This document shows positions 8,505-18,150 of a stretch of DNA of 33,258 bases, one piece after another. Both the position numbers and the translations under genes were made by a program. Positions within the stretch are counted from its first letter, which is position 1. Every line of letters begins with the position of its first letter. The DNA is from a virus: positions 1-33,258 of IMG/VR virus record IMGVR_UViG_3300009124_000054. One strand, given 5' to 3'. The notes under the pieces are model-generated. The model saw nothing but the letters and a program-made list of their open reading frames with translations, was not told the origin of the DNA and did not search any database.

Positions 8505-8672
8505 CTATCTATTCTCCCACCAACCAAAGAATAGTGCTAGCACGACAGTTACTAATGGAACACCAATAGCAGTATAAGCAATTACTGACCACAAGTACCC
8601 AATAGGGTCTGTGTTGAACAGCTCATATGCTGATGTTGCAAAAGTAGCTACGATTATTGTGCTTCTTGTCAT
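8505..8672 (-). CDS. Small single- or double-span membrane protein in the amidoligase operon
   Basis: 55 residues (MTRSTIIVATFATSAYEL...). Residues 26-50 (YLWSVIAYTAIGVPLV then TVVLALFFGWW) are strongly hydrophobic and should span the membrane; the N-terminal part is only mildly hydrophobic. GGAGG lies about 8-9 nt upstream, and its ATG overlaps the stop of the amidoligase as TAATG, so it is translated with it. It could anchor the ligase system at the membrane or act as a holin-like peptide; neither is shown. Confidence 0.65.
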   Translation of the reverse strand: MTRSTIIVATFATSAYELFNTDPIGYLWSVIAYTAIGVPLVTVVLALFFGWWENR

Positions 8673-9877
8673 TATGAGTTACCTCCATAGTTGTCTTCTT
8701 CATTTAGTTGTATTAGATATGGCAACAAGTCAGTTCCATAAGTAAGCGATTGCTGTTTATGAGAATCTGAATCGTCCCAATTCATTTCTAAGAACCTAGC
8801 AAGTTCTTCATTGAAGCCCTTCCTTATTGGATTCTTACAATAACTTACAAACGAATGCAAGTTAGTCACATATTGTAGAGCCTCTTTATATCTACCTTCA
8901 TTTATATAGTCTGAAAGAAGATGTACATATCTCCAACATGCATCTAAGAATGCCATGTTCTTAATTAGTCTATCTGCACGTAAGTTAGAATTGAATGCTC
9001 TAACTTCCATTGTTGTACCATGACCATTAAGGTTTAGTGCGGAATATCTACCGGCTTGCGAAGTTCTTCCGTTCTTAATGACATCGTAGAATATTTTACC
9101 GAGCTTACCTGCATTAAGGTCGCTTCTATCATATTCTCTATCGACTGGTACATTGTAATGGCACCATTGGTTTGCAGACCTTTGACATATGATTTCCAAG
9201 AACGGTTTACCGTAATCGTCAACATATAGTTCAAAGGTTCTCCATAGAATAAGGAACAAATAAAGTTCCGCATCTGTGAAGGCAGCTTTAGGCATATGTA
9301 TGTGTATACCTGCACTGTCATTCCAATAGCCAGACAAGCCACCTGCATTGTCTTCGACAATCTGTGCAAATGGTTTGAATGACTCAACTGTCATTGGTTG
9401 GAAGTTGAATTCCACACCGTTGTTAAGTGAGCCATCATATTTTGCTATTATCGGACTGATGTAAGGATATGTTTGTCTACCCTTACTTATTGCAAAGTCA
9501 CGCATGTTCTTGTAAAGATATTCATTAGATTTAGTAATGATATCTGCTACAGGTTGCCAACTATGCATGTCACCATAATCGCAATCGTAGTCACAGTAAC
9601 CATGGTCAGCCTCGTAACAGTAATCGCAATTACAGTCACAGTCGCCATCAGTATACTCTGCTTCCAATTCCATACCCATAGGGATACCAGTTTCCCAGTA
9701 TCTCTTTTGGATATTCTTTGTTGCTTGCTCCGTAGAGCATTTACCATTTCTTCTACCAGCTGGTAGACCAATAGTATTTTTGTGTACTACAAAGACACCG
9801 TGCGAACTACGCACCGAACTCAATGAGCTCGGTGTTTCGTCTATGTCGTGTCTTATGTTTTCTGTACTTCTAGGCAT
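8672..9877 (-). CDS. Amidoligase_2-like COOH-NH2 ligase with Cys-rich insert
   Basis: 401 residues. Motifs of the glutamine-synthetase-fold amidoligase family (Pfam Amidoligase_2): GMELEAE (68-74), KYDGS with D148, GVEF with E156, GIHIH (191-195), and TTMEVRAFNSN (288-298). In this fold the acidic residues bind Mg-ATP, and the enzyme joins a carboxylate to an amine. Between motif 1 and motif 2 there is an unusual Asp/Cys-rich stretch with Cys at 80, 82, 84, 87, 95 and 99, a likely metal site. The substrate is unknown. AGGAG precedes the start. It is followed, with a 1-nt overlap, by a membrane mini-protein and preceded by a second amidoligase, so both probably act in one pathway with the amidotransferase at 12666. 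Confidence 0.75.
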   Translation of the reverse strand: MPRSTENIRHDIDETPSSLSSVRSSHGVFVVHKNTIGLPAGRRNGKCSTEQATKNIQKRYWETGIPMGMELEAEYTDGDCDCNCDYCYEADHGYCDYDCDYGDMHSWQPVADIITKSNEYLYKNMRDFAISKGRQTYPYISPIIAKYDGSLNNGVEFNFQPMTVESFKPFAQIVEDNAGGLSGYWNDSAGIHIHMPKAAFTDAELYLFLILWRTFELYVDDYGKPFLEIICQRSANQWCHYNVPVDREYDRSDLNAGKLGKIFYDVIKNGRTSQAGRYSALNLNGHGTTMEVRAFNSNLRADRLIKNMAFLDACWRYVHLLSDYINEGRYKEALQYVTNLHSFVSYCKNPIRKGFNEELARFLEMNWDDSDSHKQQSLTYGTDLLPYLIQLNEEDNYGGNS

Positions 9878-9903
9878 GATTATTATCTCCTATGTTTTTT
9901 TTA

Positions 9904-12630
9904 TTATATTGTATTACCAAGGCGTGTCACTGGTTGAGCAGGCTCAATAGCTTCCTCTACCACTTCCTCAATAATTTCTTCTTCTGGTTGCTCCCAGAGA
10001 GAATCAATTTCGTCTTCAGATATTTCCAAGTCGTCATCGTTTCTCAATAAGAACTCCATAAGATGTTGATACTTATGATGATTGTCTTGTATAAATTGAA
10101 CAAATACTTGCTCAATGTTTAAGACTGCATCAAAGCCTTCATCTTGTGTGTTCCTAATCAGATTCTCTTCAGCATCTGACCATTCGTCGGCTTCATTACG
10201 CCAAGTACTGATTTCATTTAGCAATGATTCATCAGGACCTAGTTCATTATCCCAACTGGAACTGTCTGACTTCCACATTGTGAAGTCATACAATGCTTGA
10301 ACAAATTCTAAGTTCTTAAGAACTCTATTGCCCTTAGCATTGGAGTTGAAGTATCTTAGCTCAATAGTGTTATTGTGCATAAGGTTAATACCTTGATACT
10401 TGCTTGAGTTGTTAGCACGTCTTGAACGAACAACCGCTGCAATAGCATTAGGCACATCGTGGTACTCTAATTGGTCCCAAGATGTCCAGGTATTGCTTGG
10501 TCGTTGTGCAATGTATCTAAGCAATCCGTTTGCATTCCATTGCAGTGCTTGTAGCGCTGACAAGAATGTATAACCGTGTTGCTCAGTGAATGCGTCCCAT
10601 GGTATATGTATGTGAATACCTACACCACCAACACTGTGTGCTTTGTAGTTTTGCTCAGTCATGTACCAGAATGTCTTAGGAGCATTTTGCCATGCTCTCA
10701 TAGACATTGGCTGAGAAATAAACTCAGCACCAGTACTTGATGGTAGTGAGCCATCACGTTTGATGTACATTAACTGTGGAGCTACATCATATGACATCTT
10801 ACGATAGTCATTAGGATGGAATGTTTCTAATGTTCTCTGGAACAATTGCATTGGTCCAACATTAGATTGTTCTCTAGTATCTCTAGCAATAAGCTCGAGC
10901 TCTAGACCCATAAACAATCCATACTCTCTGTGCCATGATGTACACCTATGGTTAGGTATATCATGTTCAGAACAGTAAGCATAGTCACCACTTGAGCCTT
11001 CTGTGAATGTTGAGTAATATTTTCCATCAATATAGTCAACATAATAGAAGTCTGGTCGATAGTTGTATGCGTTCTTCTCTTTGTTTAGGCGTATGCCATG
11101 AGAAGGTTCAAGCCAACCATCGTCAACTACTCTACTCTCTTCTGCTCTACTTGCGTATCTCATTCTGAAATCACGGTCTTCCATCATAGAGTCAATCCAC
11201 ATAGCAATGTGGTCACCTCTTAAATCGTCTGACCTGTATTGAGCAGGAAATGAATCAAGAATAGGACTGAACCTATCCAAGAACTCTGTTCTCTCAGATG
11301 AACTACTTGTCATTTGACTAGCAATAGCATCCTTACGTAACGTAGTTAACGTAAAGCCAATGTTCATTCTTGATGACATAGGAAGTTTCCTAAGCCATGT
11401 AAGATAACGTCTTGTCTCTACTGGTAACTTAAGGTCATTTACCTCAATGTCAATGTTGTTATCCTCTAGGAACTCTTCATCAACTCGCCAATCATAGTCA
11501 CGTCTACCAACTGGTCTTTCACCAGTATCGTCAACGTGTCTTAGTCTGATTGGTCTGTCATTGGCTGCAACTTCCATATCTTCATGGCTGTTGTAAGCAG
11601 CTATAATCCAAGACTTTTGCCAAGGGTTATAAGATAGTCCATGAGTAGCAATACATTGATAGCAAATTCTGCTTCTTGTATTTTGATAACTACGTACTTT
11701 GTACCAGTCAAGCATCATAACGTCATACTTGTGATGACATATGTTACATGTAGAGTACTTACGGTTGTTAGCCCATTTGAATTTACTTATCCAGTTTCCT
11801 GAATAGTTGTCAAATACCTGACCACCATTTGACCTACCATACCAATAACCTCTCTTAGCTGAGAACCAAGTCTTAGCTGAAGCTGACCTGTAATAAACTG
11901 AGTCGTAACTCAATTCACTACCATTGCCAGGTAAGGCATATGATATGTAGTTATCAGTAACCATAGGAATACCAACGTATCGTAATGGTAAAGTGTCCCA
12001 TTGTTTAGGATACATTTGATATTGGATATGATTTCTAAGCACAGTAGTTATCTCTGTCTGTGAATAGTCATCACTATCCGCAACACCACTTGATATACAC
12101 TCATAATGAGATATCCAAGTTGCTCTTGGGTTACTGTAATTAACAGCTCCGAATCTATCTGCCAATAGATTACGTAACCAATTAATTCTGGAACCGTATG
12201 TATAGTTGCTTTCCAATGTGGTGTAGAAAGGTTCTGTCACGAATACTGAATATATACTATTCAATACTTCTATGACAGTCCTTACGTCTACATCATGATT
12301 ACTTGCGTAAGCATGAGCTCTATTGGATACAACGTCCTGCATACTGCGTTTCCATTTTGCAGATGCCTCTTTAAAGTCTCTAACATTATCTTGTGTTAGT
12401 GACTCAATGAGTTCGGCAACGTCAATAGATATAATTGCATTGTACTTCTTCTTACTACCAGTAAGGTTAGGAGTTTCACGCAACCATCTATTGTAACTAT
12501 AATCAGTATTGTCTTGATGAAGTGGGTGGTCTGAACCACTACGACTTTCATCTACAATATTGATATACTGTGCCTTTATATGCTCATACGGGAGCTTAGA
12601 CCCCCGTATGATACCTGTATATTCGGACAT
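9904..12630 (-). CDS. Large protein with C-terminal amidoligase_2-like domain and Zn finger
   Basis: 908 residues. The C-terminal part (about 573-785) repeats the amidoligase motifs: GLELEL (575-580), KRDGS with D626, GAEFISQP with E636, GIHIHIP (671-677), IAQRPSNTW and NTIELRYFNSN (754-764). A C4 zinc finger lies in the N-terminal region (C295, C298, C323, C326), and a second possible metal site at C553, H556, H561, C563. Residues 1-290 and 340-550 are of unknown fold. The last 60 residues are very acidic. AAAGGAG precedes the ATG. The long N-terminus may recognise the protein or cell-wall substrate to be modified; this is inference. Its partner ligase starts 27 nt downstream. Confidence 0.7.
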   Translation of the reverse strand: MSEYTGIIRGSKLPYEHIKAQYINIVDESRSGSDHPLHQDNTDYSYNRWLRETPNLTGSKKKYNAIISIDVAELIESLTQDNVRDFKEASAKWKRSMQDVVSNRAHAYASNHDVDVRTVIEVLNSIYSVFVTEPFYTTLESNYTYGSRINWLRNLLADRFGAVNYSNPRATWISHYECISSGVADSDDYSQTEITTVLRNHIQYQMYPKQWDTLPLRYVGIPMVTDNYISYALPGNGSELSYDSVYYRSASAKTWFSAKRGYWYGRSNGGQVFDNYSGNWISKFKWANNRKYSTCNICHHKYDVMMLDWYKVRSYQNTRSRICYQCIATHGLSYNPWQKSWIIAAYNSHEDMEVAANDRPIRLRHVDDTGERPVGRRDYDWRVDEEFLEDNNIDIEVNDLKLPVETRRYLTWLRKLPMSSRMNIGFTLTTLRKDAIASQMTSSSSERTEFLDRFSPILDSFPAQYRSDDLRGDHIAMWIDSMMEDRDFRMRYASRAEESRVVDDGWLEPSHGIRLNKEKNAYNYRPDFYYVDYIDGKYYSTFTEGSSGDYAYCSEHDIPNHRCTSWHREYGLFMGLELELIARDTREQSNVGPMQLFQRTLETFHPNDYRKMSYDVAPQLMYIKRDGSLPSSTGAEFISQPMSMRAWQNAPKTFWYMTEQNYKAHSVGGVGIHIHIPWDAFTEQHGYTFLSALQALQWNANGLLRYIAQRPSNTWTSWDQLEYHDVPNAIAAVVRSRRANNSSKYQGINLMHNNTIELRYFNSNAKGNRVLKNLEFVQALYDFTMWKSDSSSWDNELGPDESLLNEISTWRNEADEWSDAEENLIRNTQDEGFDAVLNIEQVFVQFIQDNHHKYQHLMEFLLRNDDDLEISEDEIDSLWEQPEEEIIEEVVEEAIEPAQPVTRLGNTI

Positions 12631-12665
12631 TAGTTTGTCTCCTTTGTATTTTTATTTATTTGTAA

Positions 12666-13769
12666 TTAAAAAGGAAGCGTTTCTTGCTTCACTTCTTTTT
12701 TCTTGGTTGACTTTTTAAAGTCAGCTTTTGCTTGTATCTGAGCACCTTCGTACTCTGAAGCGTCTGCTATATAATTACCAAGTTGACAATCGTCGCTACA
12801 TGTTCTGACACCCCAGACTGTAATAGCTTTATCACAGTCAAAGCATCTCCATATACCGTTCTCATCAATTTCAGCCCATAGACCGTCCATTGCATCTTCA
12901 ATGGTTTGGTAACCAGTGTTAGCTTGCAATGTTTCCCATGTGGCAACGAATGCATCATCGTCGAGCAATTGCTTATCATAAGTCAATCCCTCATGTTTGA
13001 TTGCTCGTCGCTCTAAGTTAGCTTGAGCTTCATCGTTGATATGGTCATCGTAGTAAATGATTTCACCAGTTTCTGGGTCAACATACCCATCAGCTCTAGT
13101 GTCAATCAAGTCGCTGTCTCTTGAGACAGGTGCTTGATAACCATTCCACTGCTTGCCAGTCTTATATGGCTTATATGTCTTAACTATCTTAGGTCTACAA
13201 TAAGATGAGTTTGAATACCAAACTTTCCCATCATATTGACCATAGTGAGAGTTAATTATATATGATTCTCTCTTGTGCGCTTTGCTAGCAGACAAGAACA
13301 CAAACTTGTTGTGTCCAATAATATCTCCAAGCATTTCTCGCCAAGCTTCATCATCTAACACTGCATCAAGGTCTGTGTAATTAAACAACATCTCATTGAT
13401 GTATCTTGTGTCAGATATGTCTTGCTTTGCAGGTGGTATAAATGCGCTAGGCAATATACCATTGTGTGCAAACACAAGGTCTTTTCTTTGTTTTCCGTTA
13501 CTCATTACTTTGAATGGGTGTACATTAGGTATACATATAGAACCGTGTGTAGCGATTCTTGTGTGTACCAATATGTCGGATTGACCATACTCTTCAATGA
13601 TTCTGTCAAAGTTCATCTTGAACTTTTGCATCTTCATTGTTTTGTAGGTCTTTACTTTGCCGTCATCAATGTAAGCAATACCGCCACCATCTGGGTTGTT
13701 CTCCCACATGGATGTCAAAGCATTGTCATCTATTGTATGTCCGGCTGGCACTGATGCGATAATACACAT
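12666..13769 (-). CDS. Class II glutamine amidotransferase (Ntn hydrolase)
   Basis: 367 residues. It begins MCIIAS, so Cys2 becomes the N-terminal nucleophile after Met removal. Other class II motifs are in order: NPDGGGIAY (25-33), HTRIATHG (69-76), NVHPF (82-86), AHNG (101-104, oxyanion hole) and SDT (119-121). Such domains hydrolyse glutamine and pass ammonia to a synthase domain. None is fused here: the C-terminal third instead carries a possible zinc ribbon (CFDCDKA then CSDDC). The natural ammonia acceptor is therefore one of the two amidoligases encoded directly downstream. AGGAGG lies 8 nt before the ATG. Confidence 0.85.
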   Translation of the reverse strand: MCIIASVPAGHTIDDNALTSMWENNPDGGGIAYIDDGKVKTYKTMKMQKFKMNFDRIIEEYGQSDILVHTRIATHGSICIPNVHPFKVMSNGKQRKDLVFAHNGILPSAFIPPAKQDISDTRYINEMLFNYTDLDAVLDDEAWREMLGDIIGHNKFVFLSASKAHKRESYIINSHYGQYDGKVWYSNSSYCRPKIVKTYKPYKTGKQWNGYQAPVSRDSDLIDTRADGYVDPETGEIIYYDDHINDEAQANLERRAIKHEGLTYDKQLLDDDAFVATWETLQANTGYQTIEDAMDGLWAEIDENGIWRCFDCDKAITVWGVRTCSDDCQLGNYIADASEYEGAQIQAKADFKKSTKKKEVKQETLPF

Positions 13770-16383: not shown

Positions 16384-16484
16384 AACAGTCTTGAACTATT
16401 TTTATAGACTTTCGGTGTCTAGCGGGTAATCGCTTGCCATTGCTTCTTTAGTTTTATGTCTTACTAGGACAGACCCTTAGTGGT
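16384..16484 (-). other. Intergenic region with a degenerate copy of the leader repeat
   Basis: Plus-strand bases 16449-16470 (TAGTTTTATGTC then TTACTAGGAC) match the core of the leader repeats at 17145-17165 and 17345-17365. On the minus strand a stem TAGT/ACTA stands where the other copies have GAGCA/TGCTC, and AGACC/GGTCT hairpins precede it. Only a 12-codon frame follows, so this copy has no real gene behind it. Confidence 0.5.
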
Positions 16485-16793: not shown

Positions 16794-16981
16794 CTGTCCT
16801 CCTATTTATTTAGTTTGTAAAATAGATTACAATTATCACCTAAAAATAACCTATTAACGGCAGGGTTGCTATGCCTGCACATTAGAGCCTACCCAGTAGG
16901 AAGATAGGCTCCGGGCTGCAGACTAAGCGTTATCTATTAAGTAACTTGCACACATGAACTGGGTCACATGTACAATCAATG
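16794..16981 (-). other. Structured leader of the 102-residue gene
   Basis: On the minus strand CTGCA/TGCAG encloses GAGCCTA/TAGGCTC (7 bp), and GCAGG/CCTGC could form an alternative hairpin that uses the same TGCAG bases. TAACG/CGTTA would close the whole unit. An AT-rich stretch then leads to AGGAGG. No gene is visible. Confidence 0.45.
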
Positions 16982-17125
16982 TCAGTTGCAGTAGTCATAG
17001 TCATCTATAACTCTGATGACATAAGCATTTTCTTCTATCTTTACTGCAAGGCTTAATGGAATGTTTTCCATAATCCAATCTTGGACATATACCCACGTGC
17101 AGAAAAGACTAATGAGATGCCTCAT
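16982..17125 (-). CDS. Hypothetical mini-protein
   Basis: 47 residues (MRHLISLFCTWVYVQDW... ending DDYDYCN). The first 20 residues are hydrophobic and may sit in a membrane; the end is acidic. AAGGAAA lies about 6 nt before the ATG. It follows leader repeat copy A directly, which supports it being a real, regulated gene. No family recognised. Confidence 0.6.
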   Translation of the reverse strand: MRHLISLFCTWVYVQDWIMENIPLSLAVKIEENAYVIRVIDDYDYCN

Positions 17126-17208
17126 AGAATTTCCTTTCTGAGCAGTTTTATGTCATGCTCAGGACGGTTTAGTTACTTCCCACTTACGGTTGTGGCTTAC
17201 CGGCTCGG
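17126..17208 (-). promoter_or_regulatory. Leader RNA repeat, copy A
   Basis: In RNA order: CCAC-AACCGTAA-GTGG hairpin, then AAGTAACTAAAC, then CTGAGCA/TGCTCAG (7 bp, 17156-17162 with 17138-17144), then AAGGAAA and the ATG. It aligns base for base over much of its length with copy B exactly 200 bp away. It fills the whole gap between two mini-genes. Confidence 0.75.
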
Positions 17209-17325
17209 TTAAGAGCAGTTACAAATCTGGCCCACGCCTGACTTGCAAATGCCACTAACCTTGCATGTGTTGCACACATCATCTGATGATGAGTGTAGCA
17301 ACTGGCTGCAATGCCAGCACATCAT
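17209..17325 (-). CDS. Cys-rich mini-protein
   Basis: 38 residues with 8 Cys: MMCWHC near the start, CNTC in the middle, then GICKSG and ICNCS at the end. Two zinc sites or a disulfide-rich peptide are possible. AAAGGAG lies about 5-6 nt before the ATG at 17325 (a second ATG follows at once). It sits between leader copies B and A. Without a signal peptide, zinc binding in the cytoplasm is more likely. No family recognised. Confidence 0.6.
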   Translation of the reverse strand: MMCWHCSQLLHSSSDDVCNTCKVSGICKSGVGQICNCS

Positions 17326-17449
17326 ATGCTCTCCTTTCAGAGCAGTTTTAGGTCATACTCAGGACTGTTTAGTTACTTTCCAATAACGTTTGGCTTACGG
17401 CTGGTTGAGTGACAGAGATTGCCAGCGTCTCCGGACAGTGTCAGGCACA
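17326..17449 (-). promoter_or_regulatory. Leader RNA repeat, copy B
   Basis: RNA order: a head with GAGA(C)-GCTGG-CAA-TCTC and, further on, CCAGC, which could fold as an H-type pseudoknot; then CCAA-ACGTTA-TTGG, AAGTAACTAAAC, GAGTA/TGCTC and the ribosome site. The CCAA/TTGG stem replaces CCAC/GTGG of copy A, keeping the pairing. The head is shared with copy C. Confidence 0.75.
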
Positions 17450-17752
17450 CTACTCCTCTTCGGAGAGATGACCGTACAGATACTCAGCTTCTTTGAGTTC
17501 TGCATTCATCTCTTCTATGGAGTAATGCTTCCAGTCAATGTGACGTGGTCTAACACCTGCAACATCTTTGTAGAAATCTGAGAATCTACTGTAATGTTCC
17601 ATGCGCCAGAACTCGTCTACTGACTGGACATCCATTAAGCGGATATCCTCAAGAATGTCAGAAACATAAGAATAATATCCATGTTCCTTCATCCAAGCGG
17701 GTCTCGCTATCAGGACCCAAAGAGCAATAAAATACTCTTTGAGCTTAGCCAT
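17450..17752 (-). CDS. Hypothetical protein
   Basis: 100 residues from the ATG at 17752, where AAAGGAGGTG is a near-perfect ribosome site; an upstream in-frame ATG at 17818 lies in the leader hairpin. The first 20 residues (LKEYFIALWVLIARPAWM) are hydrophobic with basic residues and could dip into a membrane. The rest is charged, with DILEDIRLMDVQSVDEFW and an acidic end (LSEEE). No family recognised. Confidence 0.65.
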   Translation of the reverse strand: MAKLKEYFIALWVLIARPAWMKEHGYYSYVSDILEDIRLMDVQSVDEFWRMEHYSRFSDFYKDVAGVRPRHIDWKHYSIEEMNAELKEAEYLYGHLSEEE

Positions 17753-17910
17753 AACTATCACCTCCTTTCGGTTCGTATAGTCGGATAGGCAAATATAATA
17801 AAGCCCACCAACCTCCATGATGGGCTCTATATATTTGTTTAGTTTCCTAATATCGTTTAGGTTTAACGGCTGGTTGATTAACAGAGATTGCCAGCATCTC
17901 CGGGAAGCAA
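17753..17910 (-). promoter_or_regulatory. Leader RNA repeat, copy C, with terminator-like hairpin
   Basis: The head GAGAT-GCTGG-CA-ATCTC and CCAGC matches copy B, followed by CCTAA-ACGATA-TTAGG (17861-17846), again a changed but paired stem, and AAACTAAAC. Then a long hairpin (17836-17821 with 17807-17791, GCCCA/TGGGC core and AT-rich base) ends in a T-rich run, as in a transcription terminator or attenuator, before AAAGGAGGTG and the ATG. Confidence 0.7.
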
Positions 17911-18069
17911 TTAAGCTGTTCTACCGAAGGCAGCCATATTGCCACAGTCATAACAAATGTTATGAAGTTGGCCTTCAGCTAACCCAAGTAGAAGTCCATC
18001 TGTACCAGAATGTACAATGTGAGACGCTGGGTCTACAGTGTTACATTCCTTACAGATTTCTTCTGCCAT
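17911..18069 (-). CDS. Small double-CxxC zinc-ribbon-like protein
   Basis: 52 residues. CKEC at residues 6-9 and CYDC at about 39-42 form a standard four-Cys zinc ribbon separated by a loop. AAAGGAGGTG precedes the ATG. A 14-bp-total hairpin (18108-18150) lies just upstream. Proteins of this size and pattern are common in phages as inhibitors or adaptors of host enzymes, but no specific family is recognised. Confidence 0.65.
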   Translation of the reverse strand: MAEEICKECNTVDPASHIVHSGTDGLLLGLAEGQLHNICYDCGNMAAFGRTA

Positions 18070-18107
18070 TACTTCACCTCCTTTCCTTTTCAGATAGTCG
18101 ATGATAT

Positions 18108-18150
18108 AGATAAGTCCAAGCTCACCAGTTACGATGAGCTTGATTTATCT
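18108..18150 (-). promoter_or_regulatory. Hairpin between two mini-genes (attenuator-like)
   Basis: AGATAA (18108-18113) with TTATCT (18145-18150) and CAAGCTCA (18117-18124) with TGAGCTTG (18135-18142) form a two-part stem. It overlaps the stop of the 43-residue gene and is followed by GACTAT and AAAGGAGGTG, the same order as in leader copy C. Confidence 0.65.

Follow-up and report, generated by a model that had tools for sequence, protein, structure and literature searches.

Modular H-type pseudoknots at cistron junctions of phage mRNAs as possible 5′-facing roadblocks

In Bacillus, the 5′ stabilisers of mRNAs are 5′-proximal structures that protect the downstream mRNA from RNase J1; they are simple stem-loops or bound ribosomes and carry no conserved sequence motif. 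The autoregulatory element of T4 gene 32 is an H-type pseudoknot ahead of that gene. The viral coremin motif (GUC-CGAA-GAC-GUUAAAC-UAC), which follows the loop rule YGAD or YGNNAD and requires a second hairpin, stalls both Xrn1 and scanning ribosomes (PMC10520033). A flaviviral xrRNA stops purified bacterial RNase J1 although the two never meet in nature, which indicates that such blocks are mechanical (PMC5760640).

The window analysed here is a 33,258-base IMG/VR virus record with HK97-type head genes (terminase, head maturation protease and major head protein) on the plus strand. Its minus strand carries a cluster of small genes at about 16.5–19.3 kb, within which three copies (A, B and C) of a repeated element are located. 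All strings quoted for these copies in a previous sequence-only reading were found, on the minus strand, and the relevant RNA is that of this strand, the coding strand of the mini-genes. In its direction, a 52-aa CxxC..CxxC mini-gene (17911–18069) is followed by copy C, a 100-aa gene (17450–17752), copy B, a 38-aa cysteine-rich mini-ORF (17209–17325), copy A and a 47-aa mini-gene (16982–17125). Copies A and B have 83% identity over 71 nt, in register and at the spacing of exactly 200 nt given before, and copies B and C have a 38-nt block with 92% identity in common. The earlier statement that the elements end at the ribosome site applies to A and B, whereas C stops about 80 nt short of its gene, from which it is separated by a long hairpin of processing or terminator-like type (17791–17835, minus strand; z = −5.5). 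Another long hairpin lies between two mini-genes (18109–18149, minus strand; z = −5.4) and has related copies in two relatives, L083 and L061. The same region was found with changes in the closest relatives (L083/L005/L007, L030, L035, L061, L066 and L073), and a comparison of the whole region with annotated phages returned no similar DNA.

Analysis of the copies resolved up to three modules per copy, arranged as m1-m3-m2, and each module is best read as an H-type pseudoknot. Copy A consists of m3-m2, copy B of m1-m3-m2 and copy C of m1-m3 followed by the hairpin; the relatives L035 and L066 carry m1-m2, and L048 carries m2 alone. On the minus strand, the m2 pseudoknot of copy A (GUC-CU-GAGCA-U-GAC-AUAAAAC-UGCUC; 17140–17166) is backed by covariation, with the closing fourth pair of its first stem (S1) not formed, and the moderately supported m3 pseudoknot of this copy (CGGU/ACCG with CCAC/GUGG; 17180–17203) starts 6 nt past the stop codon of the 38-aa ORF. 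Copy B comprises m2 (GUC-CU-GAGUA-U-GAC-CUAAAAC-UGCUC; 17340–17366), m3 (CGU/ACG with CCAA/UUGG; 17380–17399) and m1 (S1 CGGAGA/UCUCUG, second stem S2 GCUGG/CCAGC; 17400–17434), and copy C comprises m3 (CGUU/AACG with CCUAA/UUAGG; 17846–17868) and m1 (17869–17903), all on the minus strand. A possible degenerate m2 (GUC-C-UAGU-AA-GAC-AUAAA-ACUA; 16449–16470, minus strand), a weak case recognised by eye at E = 1.1, is located after a 102-aa gene. The central stems reported before (CCAC/GTGG in A, CCAA/TTGG in B and CCTAA/TTAGG in C) do exist, but each simple stem forms part of a pseudoknot, since the loop ACG pairs with an upstream CGT in the same module (CGGT/ACCG in A, CGTT/AACG in C). The second stem described for copy A (CTGAGCA/TGCTCAG) is better read as a further pseudoknot, in which GAGCA/TGCTC forms across a GTC/GAC stem. 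An alternative pairing exists in copy B, where TGCTCT can join AGAGCA across the ribosome site (17330–17350, minus strand) and would then exclude stem 2 of m2, a possible switch that is absent from copy A.

The m1 module has the layout CGGAGA-U-GCUGG-CAA-UCUCUG-UUANUCAA-CCAGC. In its 11 copies, 100% of the scored pairs form and five pairs are doubly changed (for example, GUAGG/CCUAC in L066 versus GCUGG/CCAGC in the others), which was reached in 0 of 500 shuffles. A relaxed m1 pattern retrieved only copies from this phage group, the other matches being without the module. The m3 module (CGU-AAG-CCAC-ACG-NNA-GUGG) is known from five copies, one of which (L030) contains a mismatch, and beyond this phage group a single match was found, with its second stem unpaired. 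Judged from these comparisons of sequences, the proposed folds of m1 and m2 can be held with very high confidence and that of m3 with moderate confidence, because of the five copies and the mismatch. A tRNA-like piece was observed directly after the m1 module of L061 (minus strand, about 60–145), with an acceptor stem GCTCAT/ATGAGC and a T-arm AGCAGGTTCGATTCCTGCT and without D and anticodon arms.

The m2 module is a 27-nt pseudoknot, N-GUC / CU / 5 bp / N / GAC-N′ / UNAAAC / 5 bp, in which the five bases after UNAAAC are complementary to the first five after CU. In both m1 and m2, S2 is formed between the loop of the S1 hairpin and the downstream sequence, as in an H-type pseudoknot. The consensus of the m2 loop is CU + RRNYA + N, and that of the third loop (L3) is NUNAAAC, most often GUUAAAC, followed by U; the flanking nucleotides show weak preferences. 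Viral contigs were scanned with a pattern that fixed the constants but allowed any bases in the closing pair of S1 and in the outer three pairs of S2, and at least 120 stretches were obtained. As the sets from such scans are preselected for GTC/GAC, CT and AAAC, the unbiased evidence lies in the closing pair, the outer three S2 pairs and a search free of S1. Among the matches listed, the outer three S2 pairs were formed in 126–138 of 141 unique sites, and 87 of 103 distinct sequences formed the closing pair, where 51.5 would be expected. In 56 distinct sequences, chosen without reference to these four pairs, 95.2% of the cells were paired, with 82 doubly changed cells versus 28.7 in shuffles and a covariation score of 0.459 versus 0.204, each reached in 0 of 500 shuffles; slid controls all dropped to 23–51% paired.

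When the GUC/GAC requirement was dropped, 143 of the 144 sites with the loops and S2 still paired in S1, and variants including GAC/GUC, AAC/GUU, GUG/CAC, CUC/GAG, CUG/CAG, CAAC/GUUG and ACAC/GUGU turned up without having been selected by the search. The S1-free descriptor gave 15 non-GUC elements in 2.04 Mb, as against 0–1 in five first-order simulated replicates. Altering the first loop (L1) or the AAAC constant in this search left none or one element, except for CU + CAAA, which corresponded to nine copies of one site in relatives of this phage. Since most altered versions gave no matches, the element depends on both constants, L1 = CU and L3 = UNAAAC. Selection on RNA structure, as claimed by the sequence-only reading, is therefore strongly supported, with compensatory changes in m2 among many unrelated phages and in m1 among relatives; neither a lack of covariation in homologues nor recent duplication alone describes these copies. 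A search of the region against Rfam 15, at the gathering score and at E ≤ 10, returned no relevant match. Riboswitches and ribozymes of phages, among them preQ1, SAM-II, glnA and hammerhead, were considered as candidates and dropped on account of misfitting constants and the empty Rfam result.

Further searches revealed m2 in more than 100 viral contigs and in bacterial genomes. BLAST with concatenated variants, for which E 0.1 was too stringent and E 10 useful for phages, identified m2 in phages of Staphylococcus (represented by Phietavirus), Streptococcus, Lactobacillus, Geobacillus (represented by D6E), Moorella, Corynebacterium, Mycobacterium (Labelle), Arthrobacter (Molivia, with a longer L3) and Paracoccus, and in phages of Nostoc, Microcystis, Acaryochloris and Synechococcus as well as in Microviridae; 19 records were verified base by base. 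The sole departure from the usual hosts and orientation is seen in the gammaproteobacterial Vibrio phage D456 g1 (L366), in which an m2-like element (1501–1528; S1 CTC/GAG, L1 CC, with S1 and S2 both pairing) is antisense to, and partly overlaps, an annotated small gene. At the sensitivity used, a search of 20,395 E. coli records gave no m2 match, and class-wide scans of cellular genomes gave counts (0/369, 1/300, 2/291, 0/247, 0/289 and 0/297) too sparse to compare. One scan of species genomes gave 120 pattern matches, of which 91 had all three free S2 pairs, where about 5% would be expected by chance. This wide distribution and the pseudoknots themselves go beyond what the earlier reading had seen. 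No phage or bacterial precedent for m2 was found in the open-licence PMC literature; one could exist in preprints or in the subscription papers, most of which lie outside that scope. It was also observed that in L239, L258 and L308 a cysteine-rich protein of 41–53 aa (FWI..CxxC..CKQSFRCxEVxCP..) ends 6 nt before m2, and a common segment, GCGTTTCTGGTT..GAGTCAG, follows m2. In three Clostridia loci (L247, L281 and L344), the segment in common after m2 is CACCGC(C)..CACCGCATCACCTGATCACTGATGG, perhaps a mobile element.

Among the described systems, coremin bears the closest likeness to m2. The S1 stem N-GUC/GAC-N′ corresponds to the first coremin hairpin (hp1), about 4 bp of GUC/GAC with a closing pair; the spacer GUUAAACU directly after hp1 is matched by L3 of m2, followed by U; and both elements measure about 20–27 nt, occupy intergenic regions or 3′ UTRs and are sometimes repeated. 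However, L3 is shorter than the coremin spacer of 8–10 nt, the 8-nt loop of m2 starts with CU and departs from YGAD/YGNNAD, and m2 has neither hp2, the strand after the spacer pairing with the loop instead, nor a constant downstream hairpin. Moreover, S1 of m2 also accepts sequences other than GUC/GAC, and the reports of coremin concern RNA viruses, those of plants and fungi and some others, whereas m2 occurs in DNA phages. As the loop rule and the second-hairpin rule both fail, m2 is not filed as coremin on its sequence; by analogy, it may work like coremin. With flaviviral xrRNA, m2 would share the character of a pseudoknotted roadblock facing the 5′ side, a role proposed here for m2, and tandem use, but xrRNA is a much larger ring fold around a three-way junction and has no sequence resemblance to m2. 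The Bacillus 5′ stabilisers resemble the proposed role of m2 in downstream protection and differ from m2, which has a conserved motif. Like the T4 gene 32 pseudoknot, m2 is H-type and, in S-CRM01, stands ahead of a gene-32 homologue (gp32), but it has other constants and is not specific to gene 32.

The position of m2 relative to genes was analysed in 228 elements with enough flank. The results showed that 71 of them begin 5–9 nt past the upstream stop codon, with a mode of 6 nt, and that only one lies nearer than 5 nt (each gap being one nucleotide less if the closing pair is counted). The upstream stop was TAA in 51 of 70 sites. The next start codon is mostly 20–29 nt downstream of m2, in a broad distribution. 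In annotated phages other than the Vibrio phage, m2 is located between genes of the same direction, and further copies lie after terminator-like hairpins or beside tRNAs. The downstream genes encode scaffold or major capsid protein in a Staphylococcus, a Geobacillus, two Lactobacillus and one Streptococcus phage, gp32 in S-CRM01, and tRNAs in Mycobacterium, Arthrobacter and Nostoc phages. No downstream gene is common to the named phages; those behind m2 are often ones needed in quantity. The former description of the copies as leader RNAs holds in that they precede ribosome sites; they are better described as cistron-junction pseudoknots, which also occur before tRNA genes and after terminators. 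For the same reason, of the roles suggested earlier, one in the processing or stability of mRNA is the better fit; control of translation is possible for A and B.

The post-stop position, the absence of a common downstream gene and the presence of capsid, SSB and tRNA genes downstream fit a roadblock that protects what lies downstream. The empty search of E. coli records likewise counts in favour of this reading. We propose, at about even confidence and by analogy with the viral elements, that modular H-type pseudoknots at cistron junctions of phage mRNAs act as 5′-facing roadblocks. Each pseudoknot would form a compact barrier towards the 5′ side, at which a nuclease coming from the mRNA 5′ end (RNase J, or a 5′-scanning RNase E) would be stopped. 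Decay could then be confined to the upstream cistron, and the part behind the barrier (capsid, SSB, tRNA or small regulators) would survive as a stable RNA with a defined 5′ end; the same structure might also stop ribosomes that slide on after termination, and the tandem modules in this phage would serve as redundant barriers. A wider formulation, to which we give slightly less than even confidence, is that phages across bacterial phyla share coremin-like, exonuclease-stalling pseudoknots that set operon stoichiometry via the protected 5′ end, a bacterial counterpart of the xrRNAs of eukaryotic RNA viruses; in this marine phage, three different knots would be stacked in tandem. In its simplest version, a device against RNase J, the proposal predicts that carriers are enriched in RNase J. 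Full-length RNase J (TIGR00649 over cut-off) was detected in 46 of 79 m2-carrying genomes versus 7 of 15 control genomes with chance hits, many of them incomplete MAGs, so that the enrichment predicted for RNase J as the sole partner was not found and the enzyme is not clearly associated with m2 carriers. The Omnitrophota carriers were consistently without RNase J; some carrier contigs are probably misbinned. The plausible variant in the Vibrio phage also counts against the proposal, as do the loop and the missing second hairpin by which m2 departs from coremin.

The ribosome, rather than a nuclease, could also be the machine that is blocked. A pseudoknot at the mRNA entry of a terminating ribosome might act as a translational fence that prevents sliding and reinitiation or tunes the coupling of cistrons, a reading which we regard as rather unlikely. 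It agrees with the sharp minimum gap of about 5 nt past the stop codon, with the blocking of scanning ribosomes by coremin (PMC10520033) and with the occurrence of m2 in bacteria without detectable RNase J. It also agrees with about 40 bacterial m2 sites that follow a conserved small ORF ending in ..RPVAHCKEGC (consensus ..RY[ML]xPVAHCKEGC), where the last Cys codon is exactly 8 nt from S1 and the position of the stop codon varies. On the other hand, many m2 copies stand before tRNA genes or after terminators, at sites with no nearby stop codon from which a ribosome could come. The 5-nt minimum and the exact 8-nt gap together suggest that the ribosome is at least a co-player. The small ORF looks like a redox- or metal-sensing leader peptide, and the arrangement, which would be a separate use of the same knot, argues that ribosomes meet m2. 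It was observed at L240, L259, L262, L290, L301, L302 and about 34 further genome loci, in Omnitrophota, Desulfobacterota, Peptococcaceae, KSB1 and others; by eye, the downstream proteins are ferredoxin-like, hybrid-cluster, copper ATPase and anaerobic ribonucleotide reductase proteins.

It is improbable that the pseudoknot is instead a translational operator or riboswitch that binds a phage protein or small molecule and thereby gates the downstream ribosome site. The 3′ strand of S2 does end within about 10 nt of the Shine-Dalgarno sequence in copies A and B, which the alternative TGCTCT/AGAGCA hairpin of copy B would mask, but the lack of a common downstream gene, a distance to the start codon that is often 20–40 nt or more, the positions upstream of tRNAs and the spread over many phyla are at odds with such a gate. 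Still less credit is given to an RNA processing signal, that is, an endonuclease recognition element or a self-cleaving RNA that cuts polycistronic or tRNA-bearing transcripts: m2 does lie between cistrons and beside tRNAs, but its weakly conserved flanks offer no conserved cleavage site, and it has no likeness to a known ribozyme or Rfam family. Programmed recoding, with the pseudoknot driving readthrough or frameshifting at the preceding stop, is very improbable: the spacing of 5–9 nt resembles that of frameshift pseudoknots, but the stops are mostly strong TAA codons, most frames beyond them close soon in all three phases, and this candidate was rejected on the lack of an open frame or slippery site. 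Equally hard to credit is a reading without any RNA function, as repeats from recent duplication or as a mobile or recombination site acting in DNA, since, against the in-register resemblance of A and B, compensatory changes affect both stems in many lineages, refuting this for m1 and m2, and in nearly all the named phages examined the element shares its strand with the genes on either side.

Whatever its function, m2 is a 27-nt structured RNA that matched no Rfam family and occurs in phages of Firmicutes, Actinobacteria, Cyanobacteria and Alphaproteobacteria and in Microviridae. If the roadblock reading is right and m2 blocks 5′-side decay, it would explain how much more capsid than portal is made from one operon, link phage mRNA biology to plant-virus xrRNAs and provide bacterial genetics with a portable mRNA stabiliser of very small size. 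If m2 acts on ribosomes, it would represent a widespread translation fence that has so far gone unnamed.

Several other features of the window were observed on the minus strand. A strong two-part hairpin (16868–16935; z −4.1) lies downstream of the 47-aa gene, and its tail, CAACCCTGCCGTTAA, is similar to the m1-m3 junctions. The string CGACTAT occurs at both 17758–17785 and 18078–18105, 20–30 nt before strong Shine-Dalgarno sites (CCTATCCGACTATACG.. and ATCATCGACTATCTG.., respectively). At 8672–13769, two proteins match an amidoligase-related PHROG family, one of them above the Pfam Amidoligase_2 cut-off, and a class-II glutamine amidotransferase-like protein adjoins the pair.
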